From Tetraselmis striata (Eukaryota; Chlorophyta; Chlorodendrophyceae; Chlorodendrales; Chlorodendraceae): 64,000 nucleotides of DNA. This document shows positions 23 through 64,000 of the stretch, one piece after another (the first letter of the stretch is position 1; every line of letters begins with the position of its first letter). The notes beneath the pieces were generated by a model. That model was not told where the DNA came from. It worked only from the letters and a program-made list of their open reading frames with translations, and did no database searches. The position numbers and the translations under genes were made by a program. Where the stretch lies: positions 62,001 to 126,000 of the forward strand of contig VCJN01003051.1 in the NCBI GenBank assembly GCA_006384855.1. The letters are read 5' to 3'.

Positions 23-1206
23 TTGCAGGATGCTTTCGGCTCAGACGAGTTAGGACAGCGGACGCTCGACTTGCTCTCCAGCTCCCTCACCGCTCAGACA
101 CTCAAGAGTTACGCCGGCAGACTCTCCCAGTTCGCGGAGTTCTGCCACGACTCTGAGAACATCAGCCCGCTTGAGGCGACCACTGCTACCATACATGGGA
201 TGTCGTCCGGTACGTTGCCTAGATTGGTGAGCGGGGGCACATTGGGGCTAAGTCGTTGCAGCCCTACCTGTCTGCAATCAACACGTTCTTCGAGCTAGAC
301 AACCTCGACCCAATCGCCAAGGACAGCATGCACCTTATTGTAGCTCGGCGTGGGCTGGTGCTACGGCAGCGCCGCCTAGACGCTGCCCCTTTACGAGTTC
401 CTGTGCATGCTGATGTAGTTTACAGCTTCGTCAAGCGAGCCAAGTTGATTGTGTCTGCTCCCACCACATAGTACCAGTACCACTTCCGAGCCCTCGTGGC
501 CTCGGTTGACATTTTCATATTTTTTGCCATGGGACTTACTAGCGTGTCCTGCCGAGTGCGGGGTGTGCATGTCGACGATCACAACATTACGCTGCATGTG
601 TACCGCGAGAAAAGTCGCGCTGGTCGACGCGGTCCCGACGACGTGCGCGTTCTGCTCCTTCCAGTGTCAGAACACCCCCGCGTTGCACGCTTCTTGCATC
701 ACTTCATCGACCACGTACAGTCTGTCCCCCTGGTTCCTGTTGCGTTGGCTGAAACAAACTTCTCGGCGGTCACCCCAAGCGAGCAGTCAAAAGCTTGGAC
801 CGCCGCTACAATGTCGGACTGGCTCTCTGCGGCCGTTCGTCTTGTCGATGCTGCCCCTCCCGCCGGCACTTCCTGGACGTCACACAACCTTCGCAAAGGA
901 GCAGCGTCTGCCGCTAACGCCATCGGAGCTCCATTGTCCCACATTCGGTACCAAGGCGGCTGGGCCACTAACTCGACGTCGCTCAGGACTACATCGACCC
1001 CAACGTTCTTCCTTCACCTGGCGCATGGTTCTTCTTTGGCCACATCGCCCCGCTACGCTTCTTCCAAGTCCAACAGGACTCCGCAGCGGTGGCCTTCCCG
1101 GTGCCTCCTTCATGACATGGCGCTACCCCGCCCTTCTCCGTCAATCCACCGCTCTCTCCGTTCGCTCATGACTGGCAAAACCAGACTCAATTTTGAAATG
1201 ATCTAA
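23..1206 (+). pseudogene. Tyrosine recombinase of a YR retrotransposon (DIRS/Ngaro/PAT-like or Crypton-like), broken
   Basis: The conceptual product is a phage-integrase-type tyrosine recombinase, used by YR mobile elements for integration. The N-terminal core-binding part is in frame 2 (23 to about 240; residues like TLKSYAGRLSQFAEFC). The reading then moves to frame 1 (256-1206), which carries the catalytic domain with the H-x-x-R box (HNLRKGAASAANAIG near 885-930) and GWATNS. An in-frame TAG lies at 469-471. After about 985 the frame shifts again, and the catalytic tyrosine (AQDYIDPNVL) is read in another frame. So it has two frameshifts and one stop and cannot be functional as sequenced. 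The 5' end may lie outside the window. Which YR order it belongs to cannot be decided without its reverse transcriptase; the shared terminal repeat with 10430-10618 favours a DIRS-order retroelement. Confidence 0.8.
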
Positions 1207-1510
1207 ACTAGTTTATGGGGTTTCCTCCCTTGACCTAACCGCTTTTCGGCTACAAGTGCTGCTCAGTGGTACGGGAACTAGGCACCTGTCGTTGCGCCCC
1301 TTTTGGTTGCAGCACGAGCGAGTAGACATAAAAGCAGCAATAACAGCTGAGCCTGCCATCTTCCAGTTTTCGCTGCGTTACACGCAGCGCCCTCCCTGAC
1401 TCCGTTTTCCCTCCACGCTTTTCGCTTTACCTTCCTGCCAATTTCGGCTCTTGACAGTGTAAAACAGCCTGCGTGACCTTTTTGGCAAAACCACACTCAA
1501 CCTTGAAACT
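1171..1510 (+). repeat. Short direct repeat flanking the YR terminal region
   Basis: The motif GGCAAAACCAGACTCAA at about 1173 recurs as GGCAAAACCACACTCAA at about 1482, each followed by a TTGAAA. The two copies bracket the terminal repeat, as expected for the interleaved (split) direct repeats of some YR retroelements. That reading is an inference. Confidence 0.5.
1199..1391 (+). repeat. Terminal repeat of the YR element, downstream copy
   Basis: About 190 bp directly after the recombinase pseudogene matches the reverse complement of 10430-10618 at roughly 80% or better by eye. Both carry the same landmarks: CTAAACTxGTTTAT, GTGCTGCTCAGTGGTACGGG, GGCACCTGTCG, ACATAAAAGCAGC, GAGCCTGCCATCTTCCA and GCTGCGTTACACGCAGC. 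In gene orientation it follows the recombinase here and precedes the gag-like ORF at 10319, so the repeat is direct relative to coding direction. Confidence 0.75.
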
Positions 1511-1515
1511 TCCGT

Positions 1516-2129
1516 GTGATGCTTAGGATTACTAGCGCGACATCGATATACTAGCGCAATATACATCGTCGTCATCGCGTCGAGTGCTAACAATAAAAGC
1601 AACCTACATTAATATAATCCTTACTCGTTGACATGGCCCAGAACCGTCCGTAAATATCATAAAAATGAAACCAGAGCGACCAATTGACCTGCTGCGCGGC
1701 CCGTCTTATTGCGGCCGCACAGCATCACAGTAGTTAACGGTTAACTCGTTGATGGAGTACAATAACGCTTTTAAAAATATGTAGAGGACCTTTCTGATTG
1801 CCTTTTATTTTGGTGATTTCCGATATCGCCTTCTGCTGCTAGCTCATGTAATTATAAAAAATATGTGGGGCGGGCGTGATTTCTGTCCTGTAAGGATTAA
1901 AGCAAGGTACCTTTCCGTCGCCGGCTCGCCGCACCGCCATCATCAGGTAGCGACTATGTGCGCGCCCCCTACTCCACAACTACGCCCACTTCGGCTCTTT
2001 AAATATGAAGATCGTGGTTACCGATTTCGTCATCACAGATCGGCTGCTGTCATCACTCAGGACCAGCTACGACCGACCGACCGACCGACCGCGGGTTGCT
2101 TCGAGTACCAGCACGCTACACCGACTGCG
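1516..2129. other. Intergenic region upstream of GPI
   Basis: AT-rich spacer without a convincing gene. It holds one copy of the ~75-bp short element (1781-1855) and a tandem CGAC/GACC stretch near 2071-2090. The GPI promoter and any 5' untranslated exon should be here; no clear TATA box or initiator can be assigned. Confidence 0.5.
1781..1855 (+). mobile_element. ~75-bp short interspersed element, copy 1
   Basis: Begins GTAGAGGACCTTTCTGATTG and ends GCTAGCTCATGTAATTAT. It is nearly identical to 55357-55432 and to the reverse complements of 33745-33816 and 45276-45347. The flanks are A/T-rich (AAAAATATG on both sides), so the target duplication is ambiguous here. Confidence 0.75.
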
Positions 2130-2151
2130 CCCCCCCCCCCCCCCCCCCCCC
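2130..2151. repeat. Poly-C tract upstream of the GPI start
   Basis: Run of 22 C on the GPI coding strand, 24 nt before the start codon. The sequence between them contains TTGTCAG, so the tract may lie in a 5' UTR or a leader intron. Confidence 0.9.
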
Positions 2152-2175
2152 GCGCGTTCCTTGTCAGCAGACGGG

Positions 2176-4259
2176 ATGGCCTTCACAGAGACGGCTGCCT
2201 GGCAGGCCCTGGCGGCCCATGTGCCGGAGGTGCGCGCGCTCCACCTGCGCGACCTGCTGCAGGAGGACGCCCGCTGTGCGGAGCTTGCCGCGGAGCACAA
2301 CGGCATCTTCCTCGACTTTTGCCGCCAGAAGCTGACCTCGGAGACGCTGGGAAAGCTCGAAGCACTGGCGGATGAAGTGGGGGTGTCCGACAAGGTGTGC
2401 TCTCGGCTGCCTCCCCCCCCCCCCCCCCCCCCCCCTCCAATCCCCCTCTCGCCAACACTCGACGTGAGTCGCGGCGTGTTCTTCCCAGAACAAGGGAGTG
2501 GGAGTTTACGGACTTGTCGATCGGCAAGAATGTTCCCACCATCGCGCTGCTTCTAGCGGCAGAGAGTTCGCTGGATAAATTACAAGGATACACCGGCAGT
2601 CAGTATGATATACCTACGACCTGTGGATGGAAGGCTGGCAGCCAGGCTTGCACGCACCGGAACTGGCATGCTGTTATGCGCTCACTCTTGGCATCAGTGT
2701 TGGATTCATCGTCGTCTCGCCTCACTGCTTGCCCGGGAACATGTCATCAGGTGGCCAGAATGTTTGCGGGTGAGCACATCAACTCAACGGAGGACCGTGC
2801 CGTGCTGCACGTGGCGCTGCGCGCCCCGCGCGACGCGGAGGTGATTGACTGCGGGCGCAATGTGGTGCCGGACGTGTGGGCTGTGCTGGACAAGGTCAGG
2901 GAGTTCAGCGACAAGGTGCGCAGCGGCCAGTGGGTGGGCGAGACCGGAAAGCCGCTGACCGACGTGGTGGCAATCGGCATCGGCGGCTCCTTCCTGGGAC
3001 CTCTCTTTGTGCACACAGCGCTCGCCGCGGACCCGGCTGCGTCCGCCACCGCCACGGGGCGCCGCCTCGCGTTTGTGGCCAACGTGGACCCCGTGGACAT
3101 CGCCACCAAGCTGTCTGGCTTTTCGCCCGATACAACGCTGGTGGTGGTGGTCTCTAAAACCTTCACCACGGCGGAGACGATGCTCAACGCGCGGACGGCG
3201 CGCTCCTGGCTGGTGGCAGCTCTGGGCGAGGCCGCGGTCGCCAAGCACATGGTGGCGGTGAGCACCAACACCGCGCTCGTGAAGGAGTTCGGCATCGACC
3301 CGGCCAACATGTTTGCCTTCTGGGACTGGGTGGGAGGGCGCTACTCGGTGTCATCGGCGGTGGGCGTGCTCCCGCTGGCGCTGCAGTACGGCTTCGACGT
3401 CGTGGCTGATTTCCTGCGCGGCATGGCGGACGTGGACACGCACTTCCGGACCGCCCCGTGCCGCTCCAACCTGCCGATGCTGATGGGGCTGCTTTCGGTG
3501 TGGAACGTGTCGTTCCTGGGGCACCCGTGCCGCGCGATCCTGCCCTACCAGGAGGCGCTCGCCAAGCTGGCGCCGCACATCCAGCAGCTGTCCATGGAGA
3601 GCAACGGGAAGAGCGTGTCCATCGGCGGCGACCCGCTCAAGGCGCCCGCAGGCGAGATCGACTTTGGGGAGCCGGGCACCAACGGGCAGCACTCGTTCTA
3701 CCAGCTCATCCACCAGGGGCGGGTCGTCCCGTGCGACTTCATCGGGGTGGCGCGCCCCCAGCAGGCCATCCAGCTGGACGGGGAGAAGGTGGCGAACCAC
3801 GACGAGCTGATGTGCAACTTTTTCGCGCAGCCGGATGCGCTGGCGCTGGGCAAGACGGCCGAGCAGCTGGCCGAGGAGGGCGTCGCGCCGGCGCTCATCC
3901 CGCACAAGACGTTCTCCGGCGACCGCCCCTCGCTCAGCCTGCTGCTGCCGGAGCTCTCCGCCTTCACGATCGGCCAGCTGCTCGCCATCTACGAGCACCG
4001 CATTGCGGTGCAGGGCTTCCTGTGGGGCATCAACTCGTTCGACCAGTGGGGCGTGGAGCTGGGCAAGGTGCTGGCCACCAAGGTGCGCAACACCATCAGC
4101 GCATGCCGGGACTCCAGCGCGCTGGTGAGCTCGTCGCAGGGGTACAACGCCTCCACGACCAACCTCATCAACCGATACCTTTCCGCCCCCGTCCAGCCCG
4201 CACCGGCCGGCACCGACCGGCTCCCCGCCTGCATGACAGTGGCCGACAAACGCCTTTGA
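2176..4259 (+). CDS. GPI: Glucose-6-phosphate isomerase
   Basis: Interconverts glucose 6-phosphate and fructose 6-phosphate in glycolysis and starch/sucrose metabolism. Two exons: 2176-2394 and 2751-4259, joined in phase 0 (AAG|GTGTGC donor, ATCAG acceptor). The join gives [24 protein letters not shown], as in the family. The product is about 575 aa, close to the usual ~550. Both family signatures are visible: [14 protein letters not shown] (near 3325) and [14 protein letters not shown] (near 4030). Also present are the sugar-phosphate loop GIGGSFLGP and SMESNGKSV. The start at [15 protein letters not shown] matches the N-terminus of bacterial-type isomerases. No plastid transit peptide is seen in this model, so the enzyme is cytosolic unless an upstream exon exists. 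The intron carries a 23-nt C run 18 nt after the donor. The gene converges with the GT77 gene. Confidence 0.97.
2413..2435. repeat. Poly-C tract in GPI intron 1
   Basis: 23 C starting 18 nt after the 5' splice site at 2395, on the coding strand. Confidence 0.95.
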
Positions 4260-4373
4260 GAGCGGAACCGCGCGTAGGTGGTGCCGGGCGATGATTGGCC
4301 TCTGAAGAATACCCGCTGCTTCTTCAGCTGCTGCTTATGTTGCTTCTTGAGCAGAGGCACGCGCTGAAACCTC

Positions 4374-4378
4374 TGTAA
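4374..4378 (+). terminator. Probable TGTAA poly(A) signal of GPI
   Basis: TGTAA, the usual chlorophyte polyadenylation motif, 115 nt after the GPI stop. The call rests on motif and position only. Confidence 0.5.
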
Positions 4379-5287
4379 TTGCAGCATGTTACACACATCA
4401 CGTGACGGCTGCTGCACCGACTGCAAGGCAGCGACACCGGCCGGGATCATCAGACCAGCGGGCGACAGGGTGACTGCTGGCGTGCGCATGTTCGGAGTGT
4501 CTGGAAATTTAAGGGCTCTGATCGCCGATGGGAGCAGACAGTGGTGGGGGCGCGATAGACCCTAGGGCTAACTTGGTCCTTTCGCACACCCATTGTACAG
4601 AGGGGTTCTGCTGCGATGGCACCGAGCGCACGCGAAGCCTTAAAATAACTCAGTCTTGCGCAGCTGGGGGAACTGAGCGGTGAACCAGGGCTTGAGTTTT
4701 CCTGAGGCAGGGTTTTAGGGTTTAAGGTTTAGGAGCTCCTACCTATACCGTCACGTGTAAGCACCAACGGTCCGCAGTTAAATATAAACGTTTTTGACCC
4801 CTTCACGAGGAGGAAAGACTATTAAAACGCAGAAAGTGACAACGCCAGAGTACAGCACGAATACGGCACTAATATTCCGACACAAAGATGCGAAACAGCT
4901 CATGTTTTGCCCCGCGGACCGTATCTTATTTATGGTAATCATTTTAGATTAGCGCAGAGTAGGGTTTTGGGTTAGTTTTAGGGTATGGAGCTCCTGTCTA
5001 TCATCACAACTGCCCTTCCGGGGGTCCAAAGGTGGCAGCCTCTCAGCAAGCGCCGCCCACCCGCTTCTCGACGACTCCCCTAGACAGCAGCCATCGGACG
5101 GTGCAGCACTCGGTCGGTGGTCGGGGGCTGCAGGTCTCATCGGAGCCGAATACACACGATCACATAGTACTGCTTATTTCCCACGGCGCTCCCGGGGACA
5201 CCGCTCATGGCCCAATCAGCCGCGTAGCGCGCCCGCCAAATGCTGTAAATACCACCTGCTGCGCTCCAGCGCACGCTGGCCACCGCT
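4379..5287. other. Spacer between convergent GPI and GT77 genes
   Basis: No gene seen. Contains degenerate plant-type telomere-like runs of TTTAGGG spacing (about 4708-4735 and 4960-4990). The right part should hold the 3' UTR of the minus-strand GT77 gene. Confidence 0.5.
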
Positions 5288-32738: not shown

Positions 32739-34142
32739 TATGCGCCGCGCATGATAATGCATCATCATCATCATGCGCATCATCATCATCATCAGGGTGC
32801 GTTATCCTTGCCCGTGTTCGTCGCTACTGTGCCGCCGCCCCGCTGTCCATCGCGTTCATTGTTCCCCCGATTGTTCCGCGCCGCCGGGGTAATTATTGAT
32901 TGATCATTGACGATATATTAATATAAGGATTATTTCGATCATTATTTATATTGATGCGATTACATAGTACCCGTAGGGGCGCTACAGTGGGGCTTATCAA
33001 TTACCGGGCTGAGGAATAACAGCGCCATGTAGAAAATCCTTCGGCAGGTAGCACCCGGTATGTAGCGACCATTTACAGTAACTGATGATGCTGCAACTCA
33101 CGGGGTGATTGGGGTACTGGTACCGTATACAGTATTATTGTCGCCGCCAGTCGCGCCTCTATAATTATTGTTGCTGCCGCCACTATGCTGCTGCACGCCA
33201 TCGTCAGTGGCAACACGCCCAGTTCCTAAACGTCGTCTGGCTTTGCGCAGAGCCGCTGAGCAGTAGCAGCTCATCCCGCACCTGTCTCCTATATTCTACA
33301 GCAGCCCCAGCTACCGTGGCTTCGTCACTGACACTGGTACCACAATTGACAGCGCAGTCTCGAGCTGACGGGACGCGCGGCACTTCAGAAGCGGCACACA
33401 TACCGACTATATGCGCCGCGCAGGATAATTCATCATCATCATCAGGGTGCGTTATCCTTGCCCGTGGTCGCTACTGTGCCGCCGCCCCGCTGTCCATCGC
33501 GTTCATTGTTCCCCCGATTGTTCCGCGCCGAGGTGATGATTGATTGATGATTGACGATTAAGGATTATTATGATCATTAATATCGATTTCACCGGGGCGC
33601 TGTAGTGGGGCTAATGAATTACCGGGCTGAGGAATAACAGCGCCATATATAAAACCTTTGGCAGGTAGCGCCCGGTAGGTAGCGACCATTTGCAGGAAAT
33701 GATTCTGCAACTCACGGGGCACTAATTACATCACGGGGTACTACTTACATGAGCTAGCAGCAGACGGCGATATCGGAAATCACCAAAATAAAAGGCAATC
33801 AGAAAGGTCCTCTACAGCGACACTGTATATTATAGTATCACGGGGTACTGGTACCGCAGTATGTTATTGTCGCCGCCAGTCGCGCCGCTAGATAATTATT
33901 GTTGCTGCCGCCACTATTCTGCTGCGCGCCATCATCAATGGCAACACGCCGCCCAGTTCCTTAACGTCGTCTGGCTTTCCGCAGAGCTGCTGAGCAGTAG
34001 CAGCTCATCCCGCATCTGTCTCCTATCTTTTACAGCAGCCCCAGCTACCGTGGCTTCGTCACTGACACTGATACCACAATTGGCAGCAGAATATCGAGCT
34101 GACGGCACGCGCGGCACTTCAGAAGCGGCACACATACCGACT
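32739..34142. repeat. Tandem duplication, unit about 0.61-0.73 kb
   Basis: The segment with GTGCGTTATCCTTGCCCGTG through CTGCAACTCACGGGG occurs at about 32798-33105 and again at 33448-33718. The segment from GGGGTACTGGTACCG through CGGCACACATACCGACTA occurs at about 33111-33405 and 33842-34142. The offset is about 650 and 613 bp in the first part and 731 bp in the second; the difference is the insertion of the short element at 33743-33837. It contains (ATC)n runs (about 32759-32794 and 33430-33442). No gene. Confidence 0.8.
33743..33837 (-). mobile_element. Short interspersed element, copy 2, with 13-bp target duplication
   Basis: The core (33745-33816) is the reverse complement of copy 1. 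ATCACGGGGTACT occurs at 33730-33742 and again at 33838-33850. The neighbouring tandem unit has the unoccupied site near 33105-33120, so this is a real insertion of about 95 bp. Confidence 0.8.
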
Positions 34143-44398: not shown

Positions 44399-45275
44399 GC
44401 GCTGGCACCCCATCAACATATGTTTGATATTATCACATTCACCTCCGCCACTACATGCATGGCAGTGTTCAAGGAACTGCTCAAGCATGGCATGAATCCG
44501 GGCCAATCGGCGGGCAAAGAGAAATACTCGGGTGCGTAATTGTATCATAATGTGCAGCCCGGCCATAACCCCCGTGGGAACACCCACACCGTATTGTGGT
44601 AACGGGTTTGACGCATAAGACGCATGGACATATATACCATGGGCGCTAGTGCGTGGTAACGCTGCCAACGATTCACAACGCGCCCACACCGATCCCTTTA
44701 CTAGTTGAGCGGCATCGCGCGCGACTAGGGACCTCCACTCAAGCGGAAGATGCGCCCCCTCAGGTAGCCCTACGTTCGCCCTACTAGCTGGTCGATCTAA
44801 CACCGCACAACCCCCGACGTCCACGTGTTAGGGCGCGCCCGATTTCGCTGTTCGTCTACTAAATGGGTTATACATGTTTTCAATAAGTCGGATGCTTTAA
44901 GGATGAACGCCCGAGCCCGTGCCGCAGCGGCCGTAGCCTCTATGGGCGCAATATCCAATTCCTGCATCATCGGTGCAGTGGCCGCCCCAGGGGGTTTTTA
45001 CCCACCCCAACAAGGCACCGCGAGCACGGATTGAGTACGGTTTGTAATTTATTTGCGCCGCTAGTTCTATCCATACCCTACTATACTTCACACCCGTAAG
45101 TTAGAACCGGTAGTACACAGGTTTTTGACACACACGAACATTAATTATGGAATTATGTCCCGTCCACCGACTAATACCGAATCAAGCGCCTCGATGGCGC
45201 ATTTATACCCTTCTCAACCCGGTCGTCCACAAAATGCCGCATACCTAAATCCGAGTATGACCGTACCCAAATATA

Positions 45276-45347
45276 TTTACATGAGCTAGCAGCAGAAGGC
45301 GATACCTGAAATCACCAAAGAAAAGGACAATCAGAAATAAGGTCCTC
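45276..45347 (-). mobile_element. Short interspersed element, copy 3, inside LINE copy B
   Basis: The reverse complement matches copies 1 and 4. On the minus strand TATTTGGGTACGGT occurs on each side, a 14-bp target duplication. LINE copy A has the same place uninterrupted (ATATTTGGGTTCGGTCATC at about 21799). Confidence 0.85.
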
Positions 45348-54989: not shown

Positions 54990-55350
54990 TCCGAGGATCA
55001 TCGATGTTGACAAACACTGGTCGAAGCAGGTGATCAACTGGTCCACTGGAGTGTAAGTGAGCCCATCTGGCTTATAGGCAAATAAGCCTGATGATAATGT
55101 ATTCGTATTAATAGTGCAGTATAAATTACGGCTACTGCAGAAATGATGGAATGTACTGGTACTATCAAGTGACCCCTGCTGAGTTCCGCCGTCACCTGTC
55201 GCGCACACGGCGGGGGCTGTTGCAGCGGGTCTCGGCTTGCGTGCATGGTACCCTGGGCGGCATTCTCTCTGCCGGTGTGCAGATGGCCAAGTCTGATGCG
55301 TGTGCTCGTGCCCACTCTGCGTCTTCTCATGTTGCTGCTTCCACCCCGCA
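54990..55350 (+). pseudogene. Possible spliced gene remnant
   Basis: A frame ending RIIDVDKHWSKQVINWSTGV meets a consensus donor (GTAAGTGAGC, about 55053). A consensus acceptor (GGCTACTGCAG, near 55139) is followed by NDGMYWYYQVTPAEFRRHLSR. The two join in frame. No family is recognised; there is no clear start or further exons. Confidence 0.3.
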
Positions 55351-55356
55351 GTGGCT

Positions 55357-55432
55357 GTAGAGGACCTTTCTGATTGCCCTTTTCTTTGGTGATTTCCGAT
55401 ATCGCCTTCTGCTGCTAGCTCATGTAATTATT
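55357..55432 (+). mobile_element. Short interspersed element, copy 4
   Basis: About 97% identical by eye to copy 1 over 75 bp. No target duplication is obvious immediately at its ends; TATCAAGTGAC occurs after it (about 55432) and at about 55165, which may be chance. Confidence 0.75.
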
Positions 55433-56127
55433 ATCAAGTGACATATACTGGACCTGCACAGCAAGACAGGTGTGAGGCATGTGAAGACATGCCTCATATA
55501 ACACTCCATCAAACACACCCAGATTTCTGACAGGTGTCCGACTGAACCTGAATAGCCTTTTAGATATTGGACCCAGATCAAGAAGCATGAGAAATGGACA
55601 GATGAGCAGATGGAGCATGCCCCTAGCAAGGGCATTCTGCAGATGAGAATATAATGGGACAATTCTCATCATTTGTAATTACAATATTCTGATCCCACAG
55701 ACTCTGTCCCAACAGCAAGCTCTGAATTCTCCGAACATCTAGAGGTTATGGCTAGCTGCACGACTCAAAGCTTCCACTGCGTCTAGCCTGCTGTTCAGTT
55801 CTTCGTGCCTGTGTGCCTGTGTGCCTGGAGCTGTGTGGTCGCCTACTTCGTGCCAGCTTTGTGCTTACTTTGTGCCAGCAGCTTCGCTGCTGAGGAGGGG
55901 AAACTGTGTGCCTCTCTAAAACGACTTGTCGAACCCCTGGCCAGCTCTCTCTCGGCAAAACTCGACCGTTCCCTACCTCAGAAGCGACCCAGCTCCGAGC
56001 TCTTCTGCCCCCTTCTCAGCCCCACTCAGCTCCACTCTCTGATTATGGCTGTGACAACCGATCGTCTCAACTTTGGCAAAGCTCCCCCTGTCTGTCTCTC
56101 CGACTGTGTACCTGACTCCCTTACATC

Positions 56128-57732
56128 ATGTCCCTCCCTGCCAAACTCAAGCTCAAGGAGGCCAAGTACCTGGAATTTCAGGAGGTCAATGATGCTCGCC
56201 TCCTCGTGATCTGGTGCATCTCTGTGAAGCGCCACATCCGCGGTGTTCCTGGGTACCGCAACATCTTCAGCGCCAATGACACCACTGTTGATGACGCGCA
56301 TCACAATGAAGCTGTCAGCTTTATGGCTTCCCTACTGCTAGATAATCAAGACAAGGGCATCGTGCTCAAGGCCGCTGATCGCGCCAATGAGACAGCAGGC
56401 GGACGTGCGACGCTCAAGGCCTTGCGGGAACTCCGCGCTTCATACCTTCCAGATGAACGTACCCTTCTCGCTCAATTGAAAGCGTCACTGAATGATGGTC
56501 AGAGTACTCATGAAAATCTCCTTGACTTCATGACCCGGCTGGAGGACCTGCAGATTGCCATCAAAGACTGTGGTGCGACTGTCTCGGATGACGACATGCT
56601 CGTATCCCTGCTCAACGGCATGCGCACTGAGGAGGCCACTATCCGAGCAGTGGTGAAGGGGGACCCCACTGTCACCACCTTCGAGCGGGCCAAGGCAAAG
56701 ATCAGGACTGTCCAAGACCACAGCATCAGTATGGAGCAACCTGGCGCTGCCTTTGCTGCCTTTGCGCCAACTTGGGCGACTTCCTACGCTGCCCTCCAAG
56801 CCCGCGTAACTGAGCTGGAAGCTGAGAAGAAGAAGGCTGAGGCTGCGACCCGCAAGTCCGAGGTAGACGAACTGAAGGCTATGGTGGCTGCAATGCAGTC
56901 CCAGCACAACGCTGGAGGCGGCGGCAGTGCACTGCGCTTCAATCCGCAGAACCGCCGCTGCTACAACTGCAATGCCATCGGACATTTGGCCCGTAACTGC
57001 CCCAAGCCCGACAAGAGGAAGACAGCAGGAGAAGGCCGCCCAAGGCTTGCACCTGGTTCAGAGGAGCCGCCCGCCAAGGAGTTTGGAGCACTGTCGTTCC
57101 ACATGGCGCTACTTGCCAGCGCCACACCTGAGCTCCCACCCATGCCGACTGACGCTTGGTCCGTGATGCCTACCAGCCGTCGCACCATGATCAGGGCAGC
57201 GCCGTCACCCCCGCTCAGCTCCCACAACCCGTTCGGTTCCCTCACCTTCTCCGATGACACCGCCGGCCCAGACGATGAGCCTACCCTCCTGGAGGAGCGC
57301 GAAATGCGAGACGCCATCGCCGCTGTGTCAGCTGAAGAACAAGCTATTGCTGCCGCCGTTGCGGCAGTCGCTGAGGAGGAAGCTGCAGAGCGTGCCGCCA
57401 TTGCTGAAGTTGCAGCCTTCATCGCAGCCGACCCTGTGGCCATGACTGTGGCCCGCACAAGCAAGGCGGCCATCCTGCCCAACGACGTTGCCATGCGCCG
57501 AGCTATCATCACAAATGATCCCACCCCATGGCCTGCTGACTGGCTGCACTCGGCCGCCCACCGCTCGGGTAAGGCACCAGTCCCGATGCCAACTGTGACG
57601 CACGCCGTGCCAGCTTCTCGCTTCAACGCGTCGATCAGCAGTGGCATGTCTTCTGACTGCAGCCGCCTGAGCGATCATGATCTCGGGTACGACAGCGCCG
57701 ATGATGAAGAAGCCATGCTGGTGGATTTCTAG
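56128..57732 (+). CDS. Ty1/copia-type retrotransposon gag
   Basis: Capsid-nucleocapsid protein of an LTR retrotransposon, 534 aa. The N-terminal half (MSLPAKLKLKEAKYLEF..., ASLLLDNQDKGIVLKAADRA, LRASYLPDERTLLAQLKASL, MLVSLLNGMRTEEATIRAVV) has the layout of the copia gag (UBN2/retrotran_gag) domain. A CCHC knuckle CYNCNAIGHLARNC lies at about 56959-57000, followed by a Lys-rich and then an Ala/Glu-rich tail. The frame is uninterrupted. It ends at a TAG (57730-57732), after which the same frame stays open into the methyltransferase ORF. Confidence 0.9.
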   Translation: MSLPAKLKLKEAKYLEFQEVNDARLLVIWCISVKRHIRGVPGYRNIFSANDTTVDDAHHNEAVSFMASLLLDNQDKGIVLKAADRANETAGGRATLKALRELRASYLPDERTLLAQLKASLNDGQSTHENLLDFMTRLEDLQIAIKDCGATVSDDDMLVSLLNGMRTEEATIRAVVKGDPTVTTFERAKAKIRTVQDHSISMEQPGAAFAAFAPTWATSYAALQARVTELEAEKKKAEAATRKSEVDELKAMVAAMQSQHNAGGGGSALRFNPQNRRCYNCNAIGHLARNCPKPDKRKTAGEGRPRLAPGSEEPPAKEFGALSFHMALLASATPELPPMPTDAWSVMPTSRRTMIRAAPSPPLSSHNPFGSLTFSDDTAGPDDEPTLLEEREMRDAIAAVSAEEQAIAAAVAAVAEEEAAERAAIAEVAAFIAADPVAMTVARTSKAAILPNDVAMRRAIITNDPTPWPADWLHSAAHRSGKAPVPMPTVTHAVPASRFNASISSGMSSDCSRLSDHDLGYDSADDEEAMLVDF

Positions 57733-59455
57733 CGTCACTGGGCGCCGGCTGCACTTGCAGCACGTGGGTTCGCTCTCGCTGATGATCTGACATTGTCACC
57801 CGTATCTGACGACACTGGCTGCGAGAACAACAGCGTTCCTGGGCTTATTAGCGACGACAGTATCAGTGACAATGACTTCTCCCAGCACGCAAGCCCAGCC
57901 TCGCTCTGTGGCATACCCACTACTCAGTCACACACGAATGACAGCGTCTTCCCCGACTCTGACAACATGCCGCACCTGGCCCCCGACAACACTGATGATG
58001 ACAAGGCCGTCTCGATCGGTCGCCGCCCCTCCTCGTTGGGCGCACGCAGCAATCCCAGCACCCGTGCATTAAAACTTCACCGCCGCGCCATTCATGCCGC
58101 TGCCCGCACCTTCACAGTGTGGCCCAATGCCAGCCTCCTTGGGACTTCCCCAACTGCGCCTGCTGTCATGCGCAACATATATCTGGACGATTCCGTGGAC
58201 TCCTTTCGCCTCGTGCCCCGCGATGCCGTGTCCATTCAAAATCCATCGACGCAGCATGTTGCTGCTCACGAGGGCGTCTCACCCAGCAACACCAGGCTCT
58301 CCATGACCAAGAGTGCACGTCGTCATCGCAATCGCCGCTCAGCTCGTCGCCTTCGGAAGCGCGGCCCCTTTGCCATCGGGGGCACCAGGCACCTTGCAGC
58401 CACCACCCCAGTTGTCATCCCCTCGTCCCCTCCCAACGCTATCGACCAACTGGAGACTGCTCTGGCGGCCGCTGAACAGCGTTGTTTCCTGGGAGAGGCA
58501 GCGCCACTGCCGTCCATCCGCCACGTTCGTGCCGACCATGCAGCACTGGTGCCCCACCATCCACTCCATGTTGTCATCCTCTGCGCAGGAGCCACATTTG
58601 GCGTCATTGACGGACTCTGTGCAGCCGGACACTGCATTGCTACCATCACACTCGTGGAGAATGACGCCGCAATGCGTGCTGCCGGGATCCTGCAGCTCAA
58701 CAGAGTCCGTTCAAAATGGACTGCGCTCATCTCATCTGTTGCGATCGCCAATGCCTACGATCGCCTCCCCACTCATGACGTCCAACTCCTCACCACAGAC
58801 ATGTTTGCCGCACTTCCGCGTGTGGACCTTCTCGTGGCGACACCTCCGTGTCAGCCGTTCTCATCAGCTGGGAGGAATCAAGGCATGCATGACCAGCGAG
58901 CCAAGCCCTTCTATATATGCAGTCTGCCGTCTCGTCAAACAGCTCAACCGCGCACAGAGCGGTATTACCTACGCCATCGAGAATGCCGCTGGAGCCGGGC
59001 GTTTCCCCGCCATTCGCGCGGCCCTAGGGGACCCTGTCCTGGCCCGAGCACACGAGCTCGGATCATCATCCCGCCGCGACACTTTACTCTGGACCGACGC
59101 GCGCGACCCGGACGACCTGCAGGCCCACTACCATCGTTCGCTCTGTCGCCCGACCAGCGTGGGCGATTTGATTGCCAAGGGTGGCTTCGCACCGGAGTGG
59201 CAGGCTCCCGCCCACCTTCGTCACAGCAAGTTTGGCAAGTTTGTGTCCCGCAAAGGCAGTTTCGCGCACCGGCTGCATGGGTCCACCCCGGGCAGCAGTA
59301 TGCTGCTACACAATGGCGTGTATGAGGAGGCACCCACCGACATCAAATGCATTTCTATGGGCATCGATGCCAACGCCGTCGACTTCCCCGAGGTGTCCGC
59401 CGATCTGCGTCGACGTATCATTGGAGCGTGTGTGGACTCAAACGTGGCGCGCTGA
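57733..59455 (+). pseudogene. Retrotransposon-borne cytosine-5 DNA methyltransferase (one frameshift)
   Basis: Enzyme that would methylate cytosine C5 in DNA with SAM. Frame 1, open from 57733 (first ATG 57793), holds a ~260-residue basic/disordered leader. Then come motif I VVILCAGATFGVIDGL (about 58570-58612), the acidic LVENDAAMRAAG, and motif IV with the catalytic Cys in PPCQPFSSAGRNQG (about 58841-58880). At TTCTATATATGCAG (about 58908-58921) the frame moves to frame 2: motif VI AIENAAGAG, motif VIII SSSRRDTLLW, a short target-recognition region, and motifs IX/X ISMGIDANAVDFPEVSADLRRRIIG. It stops at TGA 59453-59455. All main motifs are present in order, so apart from a likely 2-nt slip in the TA repeat it is complete. 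The same element's gag lies before it and its protease after it. The motif VI-VIII spacing recalls DNMT3/DRM-like enzymes, while motif IV is of the general PCQPFS type. Confidence 0.85.
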
Positions 59456-59458
59456 CTG

Positions 59459-60343
59459 ATGGCGGCCATCTCCTCCGCGTCCAAGAACGAGAGCGCTCTT
59501 CCTAGCATTCACACCTTCCCCCACAAATGGATCTTCGACTCTGGCGCTACCTCACACATGGTGGCGCAGTACGAGGACTACTCCGACTATCAGACCATAC
59601 CGCGCCGATGGATCAGCGGCTTGGGCGCCTACGCTGTGGGTACCGGTACAGTCCATATCAGCATGCGAGCCGTCAACGGCGATACATCCTGCAGCACCCT
59701 TCACAACGTTCTTCATGTGCATGATCTCGCTTCCCGCACCAATAACGAGGTGCTCCGTCTCTTCAGTGCGCGGCAGGCTCATGATGCCAATGCAGCTCTA
59801 CAGATAGTCATGACAGCGCGCAGCAGCGCCATGCAGATCTCCGATGCCGTGACCATTCCCATCGAGAATGACGGGCGATTATTTGTCCTACACAACCACG
59901 TGCTCCGTCAGGGACGGCGTCAACGTCATGGTAGTCCGGTGGAAGCTACCACAGCCCTCTCTGCAACACCCTCCGGCGCGTTACCATCTGACAAAATGTT
60001 GTGGCATGCGCGCCTCGGTCACATCCACGAGCGCGCCATGCACCGAGTTACCAATGGGGGACCCAATGCCGACCTGCGTCATACCAGCCTTCCGTTCTGC
60101 AAGTCATGCGCAATCGTCAAATCCACTGTGGCCCCGATGCCGCGCATCTGTCATGAGAAACCAACTGTGCCATTCTCTCTCGTTGGGAGCGACTTTTGGG
60201 AGTTGCGCACTCCTTCGCTGCAAGGCCACACGTACTGCTGTGGGTACGTCGACTACGCGACATCCCTGGTGTGCTTGTTCTTCTGCAATTCCCGAAAATG
60301 TGCTACCGCTACTGCAAGGAAGACACCTTTCCTCCATGTGTAG
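59459..60343 (+). CDS. Copia protease and integrase N-terminus (truncated pol)
   Basis: Continues frame 2 after a TGA (59453-59455). WIFDSGATSHM (about 59527-59560) is the aspartic protease active site (D-S-G-A-T-S-H). KMLWHARLGHIHERAM (near 60000) starts the GAG-pre-integrase domain, and its HHCC zinc site follows (FCKSCAIV). LVGSDFWELRTPSLQGHTYCCGYVDYAT is the beginning of the integrase core with its first catalytic Asp. The frame ends at 60343, with no integrase remainder, reverse transcriptase or RNase H, so this copy is 3'-truncated where the antisense gypsy fragment begins. Confidence 0.85.
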   Translation: MAAISSASKNESALPSIHTFPHKWIFDSGATSHMVAQYEDYSDYQTIPRRWISGLGAYAVGTGTVHISMRAVNGDTSCSTLHNVLHVHDLASRTNNEVLRLFSARQAHDANAALQIVMTARSSAMQISDAVTIPIENDGRLFVLHNHVLRQGRRQRHGSPVEATTALSATPSGALPSDKMLWHARLGHIHERAMHRVTNGGPNADLRHTSLPFCKSCAIVKSTVAPMPRICHEKPTVPFSLVGSDFWELRTPSLQGHTYCCGYVDYATSLVCLFFCNSRKCATATARKTPFLHV

Positions 60344-61950
60344 CGAGCGTACGGCTGAGGGCTATTGATGCTGTCCGCAGGCAGCTCCGCCATTGCCTCC
60401 GCGTCCACCCACGGGTCACCTCTTCGCGGTCCCGCCGACAGCTCGCGGGTAATCGCCACCATGTCGCCGTCAGCCGCGCCCTCTTGGGCAGCGCCCAACA
60501 CGCCCTGTCGCGCCCATGCCGACAGCATGCGTCGGCTGCTCTCAGCCGCCGCACAGCAATAGGCTGCCGCATGTCGCACGGTGACCTCCGGTGAAAGCTC
60601 ACCCCGCCCATCCGGCTCCGACCGCTGCTCCGTTGGGTCGCCCTCCACGAACTCGATGCTCAAACAGTCGGCGTTGACATGGGTGGCGCCCGTGCGGTAG
60701 CGCACCGCGAAGTCGTACTCGCTGAGCCGCATAGCCCATCTCGCCAACTATCCGCGAAGCTGAGCGGTTATCAGGCCCTACAGTACCCCATCCAGTGGTC
60801 AGTGATCTATCATCACAACAAACTACTTGCCAAACATGTTGTACCTGAGTTTGTCAATACCATTTAACTTGGCAAGGCGCTCATCCTCGTAGGTGGAAGG
60901 CTCCGTGCCTTGGCACGTGCGGCTCGCAAACTCGAGCACATGCTCTCGCCAGTCGTCGTCCTCCTGCGCCAGCACCGCGACCAAGCCCACTCCAACACTG
61001 AAATACATGTCCGGGTTGAATAAGGGCCCGCTCCAATCCGGACTCGGGGGGCTGAAACCAAATCTGCCTTGAGCTGCTCGAAGGCATATGTAAGTTCTTG
61101 CTTCTTCGGTCCCCACTCCCACGCCATCTTGCCGGTCCGGTCAGTTTTGTCAGCGGATGGCGCTCCAAAACCACTTACCAAAAGAACTTATTCCCAAAGT
61201 AGCCCACCATGCCGAGGAAGCGCCAAATAAGCCCTATCACGACAGTCGGCGGCTGCATCTTCGTCACCATTGCCTCCACCTTGGAATGCTGTGAAAACAT
61301 TCCCTTTCCCCAAAAAGGCAATCTGCTTATTCATGGCATGCGCGCCTCCTTGGGCGCCAGCCGGATGCCCGCCTTCGCGAGCCTCTGAAACGCAGTCCCC
61401 ATATATTGCAGGTGCTGCTACAATACCTCAGCGTGGCTCCTCTCGTCTATGCCGGAAAATGCACAAATGCTATCGGCATAAACTGCCACAACGGCAGATT
61501 GCCGAATAAGGCTTCATCCGTCACACGCTGCTACGCTTAATTGGCGTTCTTGAAGCACATCGCCAACCGGCCCCAGCCACTGTCTCTAATTATTACGGCC
61601 GGTTGCTGCCACAAAACGTTCTGTTACGTCTCTCCTCCTCCGCGATAGGCAGCTGCTGGTGGAAGGCCGACTTGACGTCAAACCCCGATGTACATCCGGG
61701 CGCCTGCCACTTGCAAGGTAATTCGTCAGTCTTGCTTGGGCATACAGTACGCCCATGATTTACTGACATTGTTCAACGGGCGCGCATCCCAGTCACACCC
61801 AAAATTTGGCCCAATTGCCGTCCTCGTCGTCCGTTTTTGGTGGGCACACCGCCGGGATGTAGGGCCGCTAGCTCTCGTGATCGCTCCCGCCTCCAATAGC
61901 TCCTTGCACCTCTTGTCCACAACGACCCATGCACTCAGTCTTGCTCATTA
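60253..61950 (-). pseudogene. Ty3/gypsy pol fragment, antisense
   Basis: Minus-strand remnants in the order of a gypsy polymerase. The RT start is near 61920 (DKRCKELLEAGAITRASGP), then the RT palm near 61500-61320, where the YxDD box reads YADS (CVYADSICAFSG-like) and is followed by FQRLAKAGIRLAP. After that comes the connection/RNase H region near 61140-60850 (AFEQLKADLVSAPRV, VLEFASRTCQGTEPSTYEDERLA). The C-terminal RNase H is at 60747-60253 (RWAMRLSEYDFAVRYRTGATHVNADCL). Many frameshifts and stops. It overlaps the end of the copia integrase sequence at 60253-60343. No LTRs seen. Confidence 0.75.
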
Positions 61951-64000
61951 AGCCGTACTTGGAGCGCTTGCTGGGCTGCGCGTCGGCCATTGGTATTCGT
62001 ATTTCCCAGTACTTAAGGCCGGAAATTTGTAAACGGGCACCATCCATCCATCATCTGCCCAATAGCCGACCGTCGCATAGCTCCAGGCGCTCTCGCAATT
62101 GCGCATCGCTGCGCTCACGTCCGCACCGCCAAGGTGTGCTTGTCAAGTTCCCATACACTGGGTACGTCCTCCACATGGTCATTGATGTTTGCCGGCGTGC
62201 GTATTGCCGCGGTTGGCACAAATGATAACGCTACTTCGCTCCTCGGATCCGCATGCATATGATACGACGTTGGCGCCGAAACCTCGATCGTCGCCTCGCT
62301 TTGCTCATTGCCGTCACCTTGGTGCGGTAGCGGGTGCTCGCCCGCGGCACGTCTCACAGCCACACATATGGCTTAAAGTTTGTGTATTGCAATTGATTCA
62401 AGCTCTTTCTCGTGTCAAATGTCTTAATCTAGCATCAAGGAAGGTCCCGCAAACGCAGCTAACACAGTTGTGATGTCTAGCCGGATCGCTTCGCAAAAAT
62501 ACGTAGGAGACACACAAAGAAGTGGCAACCACCAGCCAATAACACAACGCATGCCGGCACATGTGCTGCCGCTCCCTCTCGCAGTATCTTTGCATATTGC
62601 GATGCTCTCTCCTTCTCTGCTCCGCTCTTTGACGACCGCCGCCAGACAATAACCCATCAAGAGCAGAGGGTTAACCGATGATCACGTTATGGAAGGAGGC
62701 GGGGTTTGGAAACGAAAGAGACATACCGGCGGAAACTAGAGATGTAATTAAACTACATGTTCCCTAATATGGTTAAAGATAGCATGCCCTAAAATCAACT
62801 CAGTTTGATGGGCGGTGGACAGCAACATGCTAGCACGCGTTGTAATCAATTTAAATTTCATGCAAGCATGCCACCCCCTCGCCGGATTAGGCATCTGAAT
62901 CGGCGGGGTCCTCGTTCAAGCCTTGAGCAACCAGTGATGTGGCAGACTGGCAATGGCTGACGAGCGTCAGTCAGCCAAAGCTGAACAATCTACGGGACTG
63001 CCACTCCATGGTGGTGCCCGCCATGCTGGTGGTTATGCCGTGATGGACGTTCTTAGCGATGGCGAACGCCAACATAACCCTAGCGAAAGGTCCGGTTAGT
63101 CACGGACGGTCCGGACACGTACCCCTACTAGGGTGTGTGCGCAGAGTAATCACCTAGAACTCCCCCCCCTTTACATGATCCGCTCTCTGATTTGCTGCAA
63201 GATCAAGATCACCCCCTCCCCAACCCCCCTCACCCACGGCGCACCCCGCTCGGTGTTTAAAATCGGCGATTGCAGCAGTGCTCGTATCGTGTGTCATGTA
63301 CCCGTACAAGGACCACCCCCATCCTACCCCCGAACAAGCAACTAGCAGTGCCCTCGACGCGAACCACCAACTACCGACCACCAGCCATGGCCCCTGAAAG
63401 GCCAGGCGTGGAATATGGGCCAAGTCGTTTGGAATTTGGTGAAGCACAGTGAAGAATATCTTTTAGTGCGATTCAGCCCGTATCTCACCTCCGCCCGATA
63501 ACCGTATTACCGCTATTTTTTTGAATCATCATAGCTACCCGTCGCTCCATTGGCTCCCGGTGCACCTACATGCAAATGAATCGACCCATATTGGACTCTA
63601 TCGCTAGCATGTGGGTATAGTGGCCTTCGGTAGGCGTAGGTATATGGGTGGCGCGTCGACCACTCATGTACGGGTGGTGGTTGGCGACCGGGCCCTCATT
63701 CAGCCCGTGTATCTAATCTCGGCTCAAAAATATGGGAGTACATGTAGCCCTGCGCAACGACAGCCTCATGGGCCACTCATGGGCTCTACCGCACCCAACA
63801 GTAATTTAATCTATTTTACACCACGGATGCACCCGGATTCCATTTTGCACCATAGGGTTTGATTATACCCTAGTTCCCCGGGCTACTATCAGTACTTAAG
63901 ACTCACGGGTAGTGTAGCTTGGGTTCGTAGAACTTGGCTACATGGCGGCGACATTCATAAGCGTGAACACTAGCCGCGGCGCATGTCCAATGTCGGTTTT
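61951..64000. other. Unassigned right end of the window
   Basis: A minus-strand frame at 62363-62115 may be the upstream part of the gypsy pol. From about 62400 onward no gene is recognised; short frames lack signatures. Confidence 0.35.

Follow-up and report, generated by a model that had tools for sequence, protein, structure and literature searches.

Copies of a recently mobile Ty1/copia retrotransposon of Tetraselmis striata encode a DNMT3-like cytosine-5 methyltransferase between gag and protease

Introduction

Many hosts silence their retrotransposons by cytosine methylation, and it is therefore paradoxical for such an element to hold a methyltransferase under selection. The green alga Tetraselmis striata raises this question at one locus, within a 64,000-nucleotide stretch of DNA (contig VCJN01003051.1, positions 62,001 to 126,000; hereafter the window), where an earlier note, made from the sequence alone, had read a cytosine-5 (C5) methyltransferase (MTase) inside a copia polyprotein. 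Does the enzyme belong to the element, and what would it be for? We favour, with moderate confidence, the reading that the locus is a dead member of a Ty1/copia family that moved recently, and that the Gag-Pol of this family includes, between nucleocapsid and protease, a DNMT3-like C5 MTase that would mark new complementary DNA (cDNA). The parts of this reading observed directly are the architecture, the recent open-frame insertions, the purifying selection on the MTase and its conserved catalytic residues. T. striata provides near-identical open copies, relatives with and without the MTase, and an internal control in the form of a nearly neutral linker, so that one can now test in a unicellular green alga why retroelements carry DNMTs.

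Results and discussion

A truncated copia copy with a methyltransferase

Window positions 55005–60313 on the + strand hold a broken, 3'-truncated Ty1/copia copy, in which a 5' long terminal repeat (LTR), a gag with zinc knuckle, the C5 MTase, a protease and the start of an integrase follow one another. By blastn, this copy matches an intact genomic copy, L170, at 97.0% over 55429–60313 and 94.2% over 55005–55173 (L170 element positions 156–5037 and 2–169, respectively). The window copy is dead, with two stops, one frameshift and no reverse transcriptase (RT). Its features are as follows.

55005–55743, +: 5' LTR in two halves (55005–55173 and 55429–55743), from blastn with L170; starts with TGTTGAC and ends with CATCTAGA
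55174–55428, no strand: 255-bp insertion within the LTR, flanked on both sides by about 14 bp of LTR
55744–55759, +: primer-binding-like site, GGTTATGG..., directly after the LTR
56128–57729, +: Gag, 534 codons (zf-CCHC, E 1.7e-6)
about 56956–57006, +: CCHC knuckle of Gag
57730–57732, +: in-frame stop at the gag/linker border; intact copies are open here
57733–58509, +: linker from gag to MTase, nearly neutral (ratio of nonsynonymous to synonymous substitution rates, dN/dS, 0.93 between subfamilies, from intact and long copies)
58510–59467, +: C5 MTase domain, with approximate limits from PF00145 (DNA_methylase, E 1.1e-8), alignments and the predicted fold of copy L173
MTase motifs, +: I at about 58570–58620; IV (PPCQPFS) at 58843–58863; VI at 58979–58987; VIII at about 59060–59095; C-terminal motifs after these
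58912–58918, +: frameshift in a short TA run between motifs IV and VI, from alignments
59453–59455, +: stop at the MTase/protease border; intact copies are open here
59456–60313, +: protease region and integrase start, with Pol_BBD at about 59528–59734 (E 2.6e-10) and gag_pre-integrs at about 59984–60121 (E 2.6e-8)

These assignments bear out the earlier note, which had described a copia-type gag with a CCHC knuckle, MTase motifs I, IV, VI, VIII and IX/X in order, and a copia protease/integrase behind them. The note had not mentioned the breaks in this copy, and the element begins upstream of the noted stretch, at 55005. The MTase match sits in the frame that follows the gag frame, and Pol_BBD and gag_pre-integrs lie in 59456–60340; both zf-CCHC and Pol_BBD score above their cut-offs in the window copy. 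Similarity to the element stops at 60313, in the integrase, and the reading frame is open on to 60343. The element's RT and RNase H are not in the window: blastn with L170 gave no further element match downstream up to contig position 136300 (window end 126000). A repeat search of window 50–64 kb found no second LTR. The primer-binding-like site, which may be of the half-tRNA primer type, occupies the corresponding position in A, B and D, and also in L190, a copia that lacks the MTase; all of these are introduced below. The 255-bp LTR insertion is partly repeated at window 1780–1855, 33739–33818 and 45273–45337, as a repeat resembling a short interspersed nuclear element.

Intact copies place the MTase in a recently mobile element

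A PF00145 profile search of the T. striata assembly (224,097,584 bases, 2903 contigs) scored 123 of 337 candidates. By hand count, 90 of the 123 rows show the partial match seen in the window copy (from profile position 34–57 to 92–120), which we call retro-type; the frame is at least 1000 codons long for 39 of them (one with an internal TAG). The remaining 33 rows are full-length, exon-like or other stretches, including C2414 and C325. From the other 89 retro-type rows, 18 loci were fetched, picked for long frames, and all 18 hold retroelement frames: 10 of family A, to which L170 belongs, 5 of family C, 2 of D and 1 of E (by Pfam for seven loci, and by shared sequence for the remainder).

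Uninterrupted family A frames span 2299 codons in L169, L170 and L171, 2298 in L172 and 2295 in L173, and keep gag, MTase, protease, integrase and RT in that order in a single frame between LTRs of about 467 bp. In L169, Pfam recovered zf-CCHC, DNA_methylase, Pol_BBD, gag_pre-integrs, rve, SH3_retrovirus and RVT_2 in order; rve (1347–1443; 28.2 bits, under the 32.6 cut-off) lies ahead of RVT_2 (1799–2046), that is, integrase before RT, the Ty1/copia order. The LTR pairs of full-frame family A copies are 99–100% identical, and across 16 copies of A, C and D identity is 98.9–100%, with six pairs at 100%. LTR pairs were seen in nine of the ten fetched family A loci, the tenth, L174, being a short stretch; eight of the nine have an exact 5-bp target duplication (in seven it abuts the LTR end as expected, and in L169 it is displaced by two bases), and in L176 one of the five bases mismatches. 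Exact duplications also occur in the single family B copy read and in 5/5 family C copies; both D loci start at the LTR and stand outside these counts. Single-frame copies, near-identical LTRs and target duplications together establish that the MTase is part of a recently mobile copia element.

The earlier note had proposed a search for other copies with open frames and the gag-MTase-protease order; L169–L173 (2295–2299 codons) are such copies, and carry the MTase inside the polyprotein, as it had claimed. Its own alternative, a host MTase gene amid unrelated fragments, does not hold for a domain that moves between near-identical LTRs with 5-bp duplications. More broadly, the stops, frameshift and truncated end of the window copy would fit an artefact of assembly or a chance juxtaposition in which fragments of gag and protease flank a host MTase, but open copies on several contigs, LTR pairs, target duplications and sister families with the same order all speak against it. 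Since open copies exist, we consider chance juxtaposition refuted, and the probability of this explanation negligible. Nor can the window architecture be accidental, because the T. striata protein P0003 spans the window copy colinearly (two blocks, 94% identity) and intact genomic copies keep the order in one frame. The window Gag is 97.0% identical to P0003 over its residues 1–270 and 95.1% over 271–535.

P0003 comes from protein searches that gave eight clusters of T. striata gene models (P0001–P0008, 1 to 14 members each). Three segments of L172 make up P0003 without a mismatch, and three of L173 likewise make up P0004. The assembly is hence that of T. striata, which confirms the chlorophyte host (Chlorophyta, Chlorodendrophyceae) suspected in the earlier note. 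Compared with L172, L173 and L177, respectively, gene models P0003, P0004 and P0005 omit the protease-integrase part of the open frame, with an identical donor at polyprotein residue 1169 in L172 and L173 and differing acceptors. The excision is either a gene-prediction artefact or real splicing, which occurs in other copia elements.

Two further copies, L176 and L177, have 1805-codon frames and LTRs that are 99.6 and 100% identical. Pfam found gag, MTase, protease and integrase in L176 and no match to RVT_2, and the two copies therefore look like non-autonomous derivatives.

The MTase is under purifying selection and retains its catalytic residues

Pooled dN/dS values (NG86) were calculated between five A copies and three copies of subfamily A2 (L174, L176, L177), giving 0.276 for gag, 0.933 for the linker, 0.208 for the MTase and 0.336 for protease-integrase. 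With the linker just before it as a neutral control, the MTase is thus under purifying selection. Synonymous divergence (dS) between A and A2 is about 0.18 in the MTase (residues 796–1118) against 0.03–0.09 elsewhere, which points to mosaic subfamilies, perhaps through template switching. Intact recent copies, together with relatives in other retroelement families, suggest that the MTase has been kept since it is helpful to the elements.

Selection of this kind leaves the activity of the domain to be considered. Family A has unusual motifs VIII and X (GSSSRRDT and GACVDSN) and family B reads PPCAPF in motif IV, as might be expected if the domain were a non-catalytic accessory that binds DNA or S-adenosylmethionine. 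However, the catalytic Cys, the Glu-Asn-Val and the Arg are retained in 7/7 retroelement rows of our alignment (A4, from which B is absent), and together with the dN/dS of 0.21 this makes a non-catalytic role very unlikely.

The retroelement MTases resemble DNMT3

The PF00145 match of the retroelement MTases covers only about positions 36–112 of the 324 in the profile. The structure predicted for the MTase of L173 has a class I MTase fold (prediction without an alignment gave a pLDDT of only 33.6). Its nearest solved fold and best profile match are DNMT3A/3B (best E 2.5e-12 in the PDB), yet identity to these catalytic domains is about 18–20% in structural alignments, and motifs VIII and X of the Tetraselmis enzymes are unlike theirs. 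Motif IV is SPCN in DNMT3A, unlike that of the Tetraselmis copia families, which read PPCQPFS (A and D), PPCQPWS (C) and PPCAPFS (B). In a tree with one DNMT3A row and no other eukaryotic DNMT family, for which the program issued a long-branch warning, the retroelement MTase joins DNMT3A at 98/98.

DNMT3 is a DNA enzyme, while C5 MTases of the DNMT2 type act on RNA, and DNMT2 chains occur among the sequence matches of the retroelement MTase. The domain also adjoins the nucleocapsid, where a Gag-linked enzyme would sit on RNA, so that genomic RNA or the tRNA primer might be its substrate instead of DNA; RNA methylation has been raised for SymbioLINE (PMC5890265). Given that predicted fold and profile are nearest to DNMT3, we judge an RNA substrate unlikely.

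The MTases of families A–E form one clade (100/100) apart from 30 other rows, which comprised 28 MTases of bacteria or viral contigs, selected out of 134, and two Tetraselmis Dcm-like enzymes, host DNMT1/5/6 being left out. With all 30 rows outside the retroelement clade, a viral or bacterial origin was rejected within this set. Viral folds in BFVD fit less well (best E 4.6e-11, and 1.4e-4 for the Tetraselmis virus 1 MTase, against 2.5e-12 for DNMT3 in the PDB), which would be only a hint against a viral source, because the libraries differ. A scan of viral contigs with the window MTase gave no relative, and a second viral match set (L191–L235, 31 of 45 read) contained short MTases, none within the 30 best profile scores. 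Protein searches, in which only candidates with shared short words were scored, returned no dinoflagellate protein, and beyond T. striata the last of them gave a single weak, unrelated match (E 0.04).

Sister families with and without the MTase

The retroelement MTases align end to end, with 27–51% identity between families. Family B, of which one copy was read (L236, 2147 codons), has the same order as A; its MTase scores 18.7 bits where the Pfam cut-off is 22, which means that B-like copies may escape a PF00145 count, and its frame length recurs in 7/150 scored RVT_2 rows. Family C (L181) has MTase, gag_pre-integrs, rve, SH3 and RVT_2, with no CCHC or Pol_BBD match. In family D, L185 has the full domain set, and L184 is without RVT_2 in that frame. 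Family E (L186, G000:C2687:16500-26200, with L189) is similar to a long interspersed nuclear element (LINE), with RVT_1, PCIF1_WW, DNA_methylase and RNase_H in a 3505-codon frame; all four E-type PF00145 rows (profile 49–116; C596, C2172, C653, C2687) have a PCIF1_WW match in the same orientation, no more than about 1.3 kb away. PCIF1 is a cap m6Am-type domain. The likely tetrad of family E is NPEY, in place of the NPPF that we take to be the PCIF1 tetrad, and the PCIF1-like domain may therefore be inactive.

In an RT tree, A, B and D group together (99/97), the MTase-less L190 stands beside them and C is distant; RT identity to A, B and D is 49–51% for L190 and 34–36% for C. Because L190 is nearer to A/B/D than C is, either the L190 line lost the MTase or copia gained it more than once. 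The placement of C and E varies with the root: without DNMT3A they join at 99/92, and with it E lies outside C+A/B/D at 85/60. On balance, we lean slightly towards a single DNMT3-like MTase clade that has spread across the retroelements of one genome (copia A, B, C and D, and LINE E). If so, retroelements would hand each other an epigenetic enzyme as a common tool, and a LINE would pair the MTase with a PCIF1-like domain.

One clade in four copia families and a LINE would also be conceivable as a shared benefit against a host system, with the MTase acting in trans, altering host chromatin or disturbing host silencing, and not on the element's own cDNA; PF00145 does find other, non-retroelement-like C5 MTases in the genome. 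Particles are, however, the expected place of a Gag-Pol domain, although the position in the polyprotein alone separates such a role from cDNA marking, and we regard an action on the host as rather unlikely.

A possible role in marking new cDNA

In the reading we favour, marking of new cDNA, the MTase, being a piece of Gag-Pol, would enter the virus-like particle together with integrase and RT, and there methylate fresh double-stranded cDNA before or at integration. Its target would probably be CpG, going by the DNMT3-like predicted fold, and a new copy would thus land already marked. The mark could conceal foreign-looking DNA from the host or, alternatively, damp the expression of new copies so that the element stays tolerable. 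In A, B and D, whose LTRs are CpG-poor, the promoter would stay largely free of it. The observed/expected CpG ratios of these LTRs are 0.27–0.37 (A), 0.37 (B) and 0.13–0.16 (D), with TG and CA raised. When window 1–56000 was divided into 237 overlapping stretches of 470 bp, all exceeded 0.32 (lowest 0.326), and L190 has a ratio of 1.21 in its approximate LTR region. The low ratios could reflect past methylation or methylation avoidance.

Several observations weigh against this proposal. The family C LTR has a normal CpG ratio (0.83–0.86), and the open reading frames of MTase elements (0.80–0.92) are not under that of L190 (0.80). Transitions (C-to-T/G-to-A) in the window copy show no significant excess at CpG (11/654 against 26/2063 elsewhere, Fisher p 0.44); taken with the counts for L175 (7/656 against 12/2065) and L178 (6/656 against 11/2064), they give no evidence of heavy CpG methylation of these copies, and CpG decay was dropped as a proof of methylation. 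MTase dN/dS is 0.535 among the five close A copies, with few changes, and RT-RNase H dN/dS between A and A2 is 0.621, from 1970 codon pairs only in one short overlap. Motif IV of family B reads PPCAPF instead of PPCQPF. Of 897 RVT_2 candidates, 150 were scored, and among these a frame of 1561 codons is the commonest; L190, the single copy of that length that was read, lacks an MTase, which shows that copia can thrive in this genome MTase-free. Finally, the SymbioLINE DNMT that was tested gave no DNA methylation in yeast (PMC5890265).

Comparison with known systems

De Mendoza et al. (2018, PMC5890265) described DNMTs in elements of the LINE, DIRS and Gypsy types, and stated that Symbiodinium copia elements lack a DNMT domain. 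KnitGypsy-Dnmt3 of Klebsormidium nitens is, like the Tetraselmis element, an algal LTR retrotransposon of the green lineage with a DNMT3-related polyprotein domain under purifying selection. It is, however, of Gypsy type with the DNMT in Pol (PMC5890265), whereas the Tetraselmis element is a copia (integrase before RVT_2) with the MTase between CCHC and protease, a chlorophyte host and the motif PPCQPFS; L169 thus differs from the Gypsy-type order, in which RT comes before integrase. SymbioDIRS-Dnmt3 and SymbioLINE-Dnmt also exist in many copies, with MTase-bearing and MTase-less elements side by side, but their carriers are DIRS and LINE, against copia and LINE in Tetraselmis, and the SymbioLINE MTase lies mostly in a frame upstream of RT, whereas that of family E follows RT in one frame (PMC5890265). 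According to PMC12344493 (2025), which refers to the 2018 paper for streptophytes and dinoflagellates, some DNMT3 members reside in DIRS and in LTR Copia elements; the streptophyte element is a Gypsy in PMC5890265, and Tetraselmis is unnamed in the main text of PMC12344493. DNMT3 was not found in MMETSP green algae, and DNMT6 was found in three Tetraselmis (PMC9998398). The ParB-MTase of algal DNA transposons (Ectocarpus Sola1) is likewise a transposon-borne DNA MTase in algae, but is a predicted N4-cytosine or N6-adenine enzyme (PMC12477816).

Among the matches listed in open-licence PMC, covering main texts, there was no paper on MTases in Tetraselmis retroelements. A chlorophyte copia whose MTase lies between gag and protease, and a single MTase clade common to copia and LINE, thus seem new, and the capture is likely independent, because the carriers on record are of Gypsy, DIRS and LINE type (PMC5890265). 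Copia elements and chlorophytes thereby join a phenomenon known in other algae from those three types of element.

Neighbouring remains and other MTase loci

Adjoining the truncated end of the window copy, a further feature was assigned by eye; Pfam gave no match of this type in 60253–60744.

60345–62400, −: decayed Ty3/gypsy-like RT/RNase H remains, presumably of that type from their motifs, and not the element's own

Elsewhere in the assembly, six loci (L161–L166, on C1993, C776, C1647, C2337, C355 and C1455) have a 325-codon Dcm-like MTase frame in a corresponding place. The two loci read are near-identical, and the MTase of L162 lies beside a frame with a 'INIQNDDDLCFKYCIIAALHP' stretch; these loci are probably another repeated mobile or viral element. 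At L167 (C2385), the neighbour of a Dcm-like MTase is a frame that contains domains 5 and 7 of RNA polymerase Rpb1, and the locus may be an endogenous giant-virus stretch, and C2385 also has a PCIF1_WW match about 190 kb from L167.

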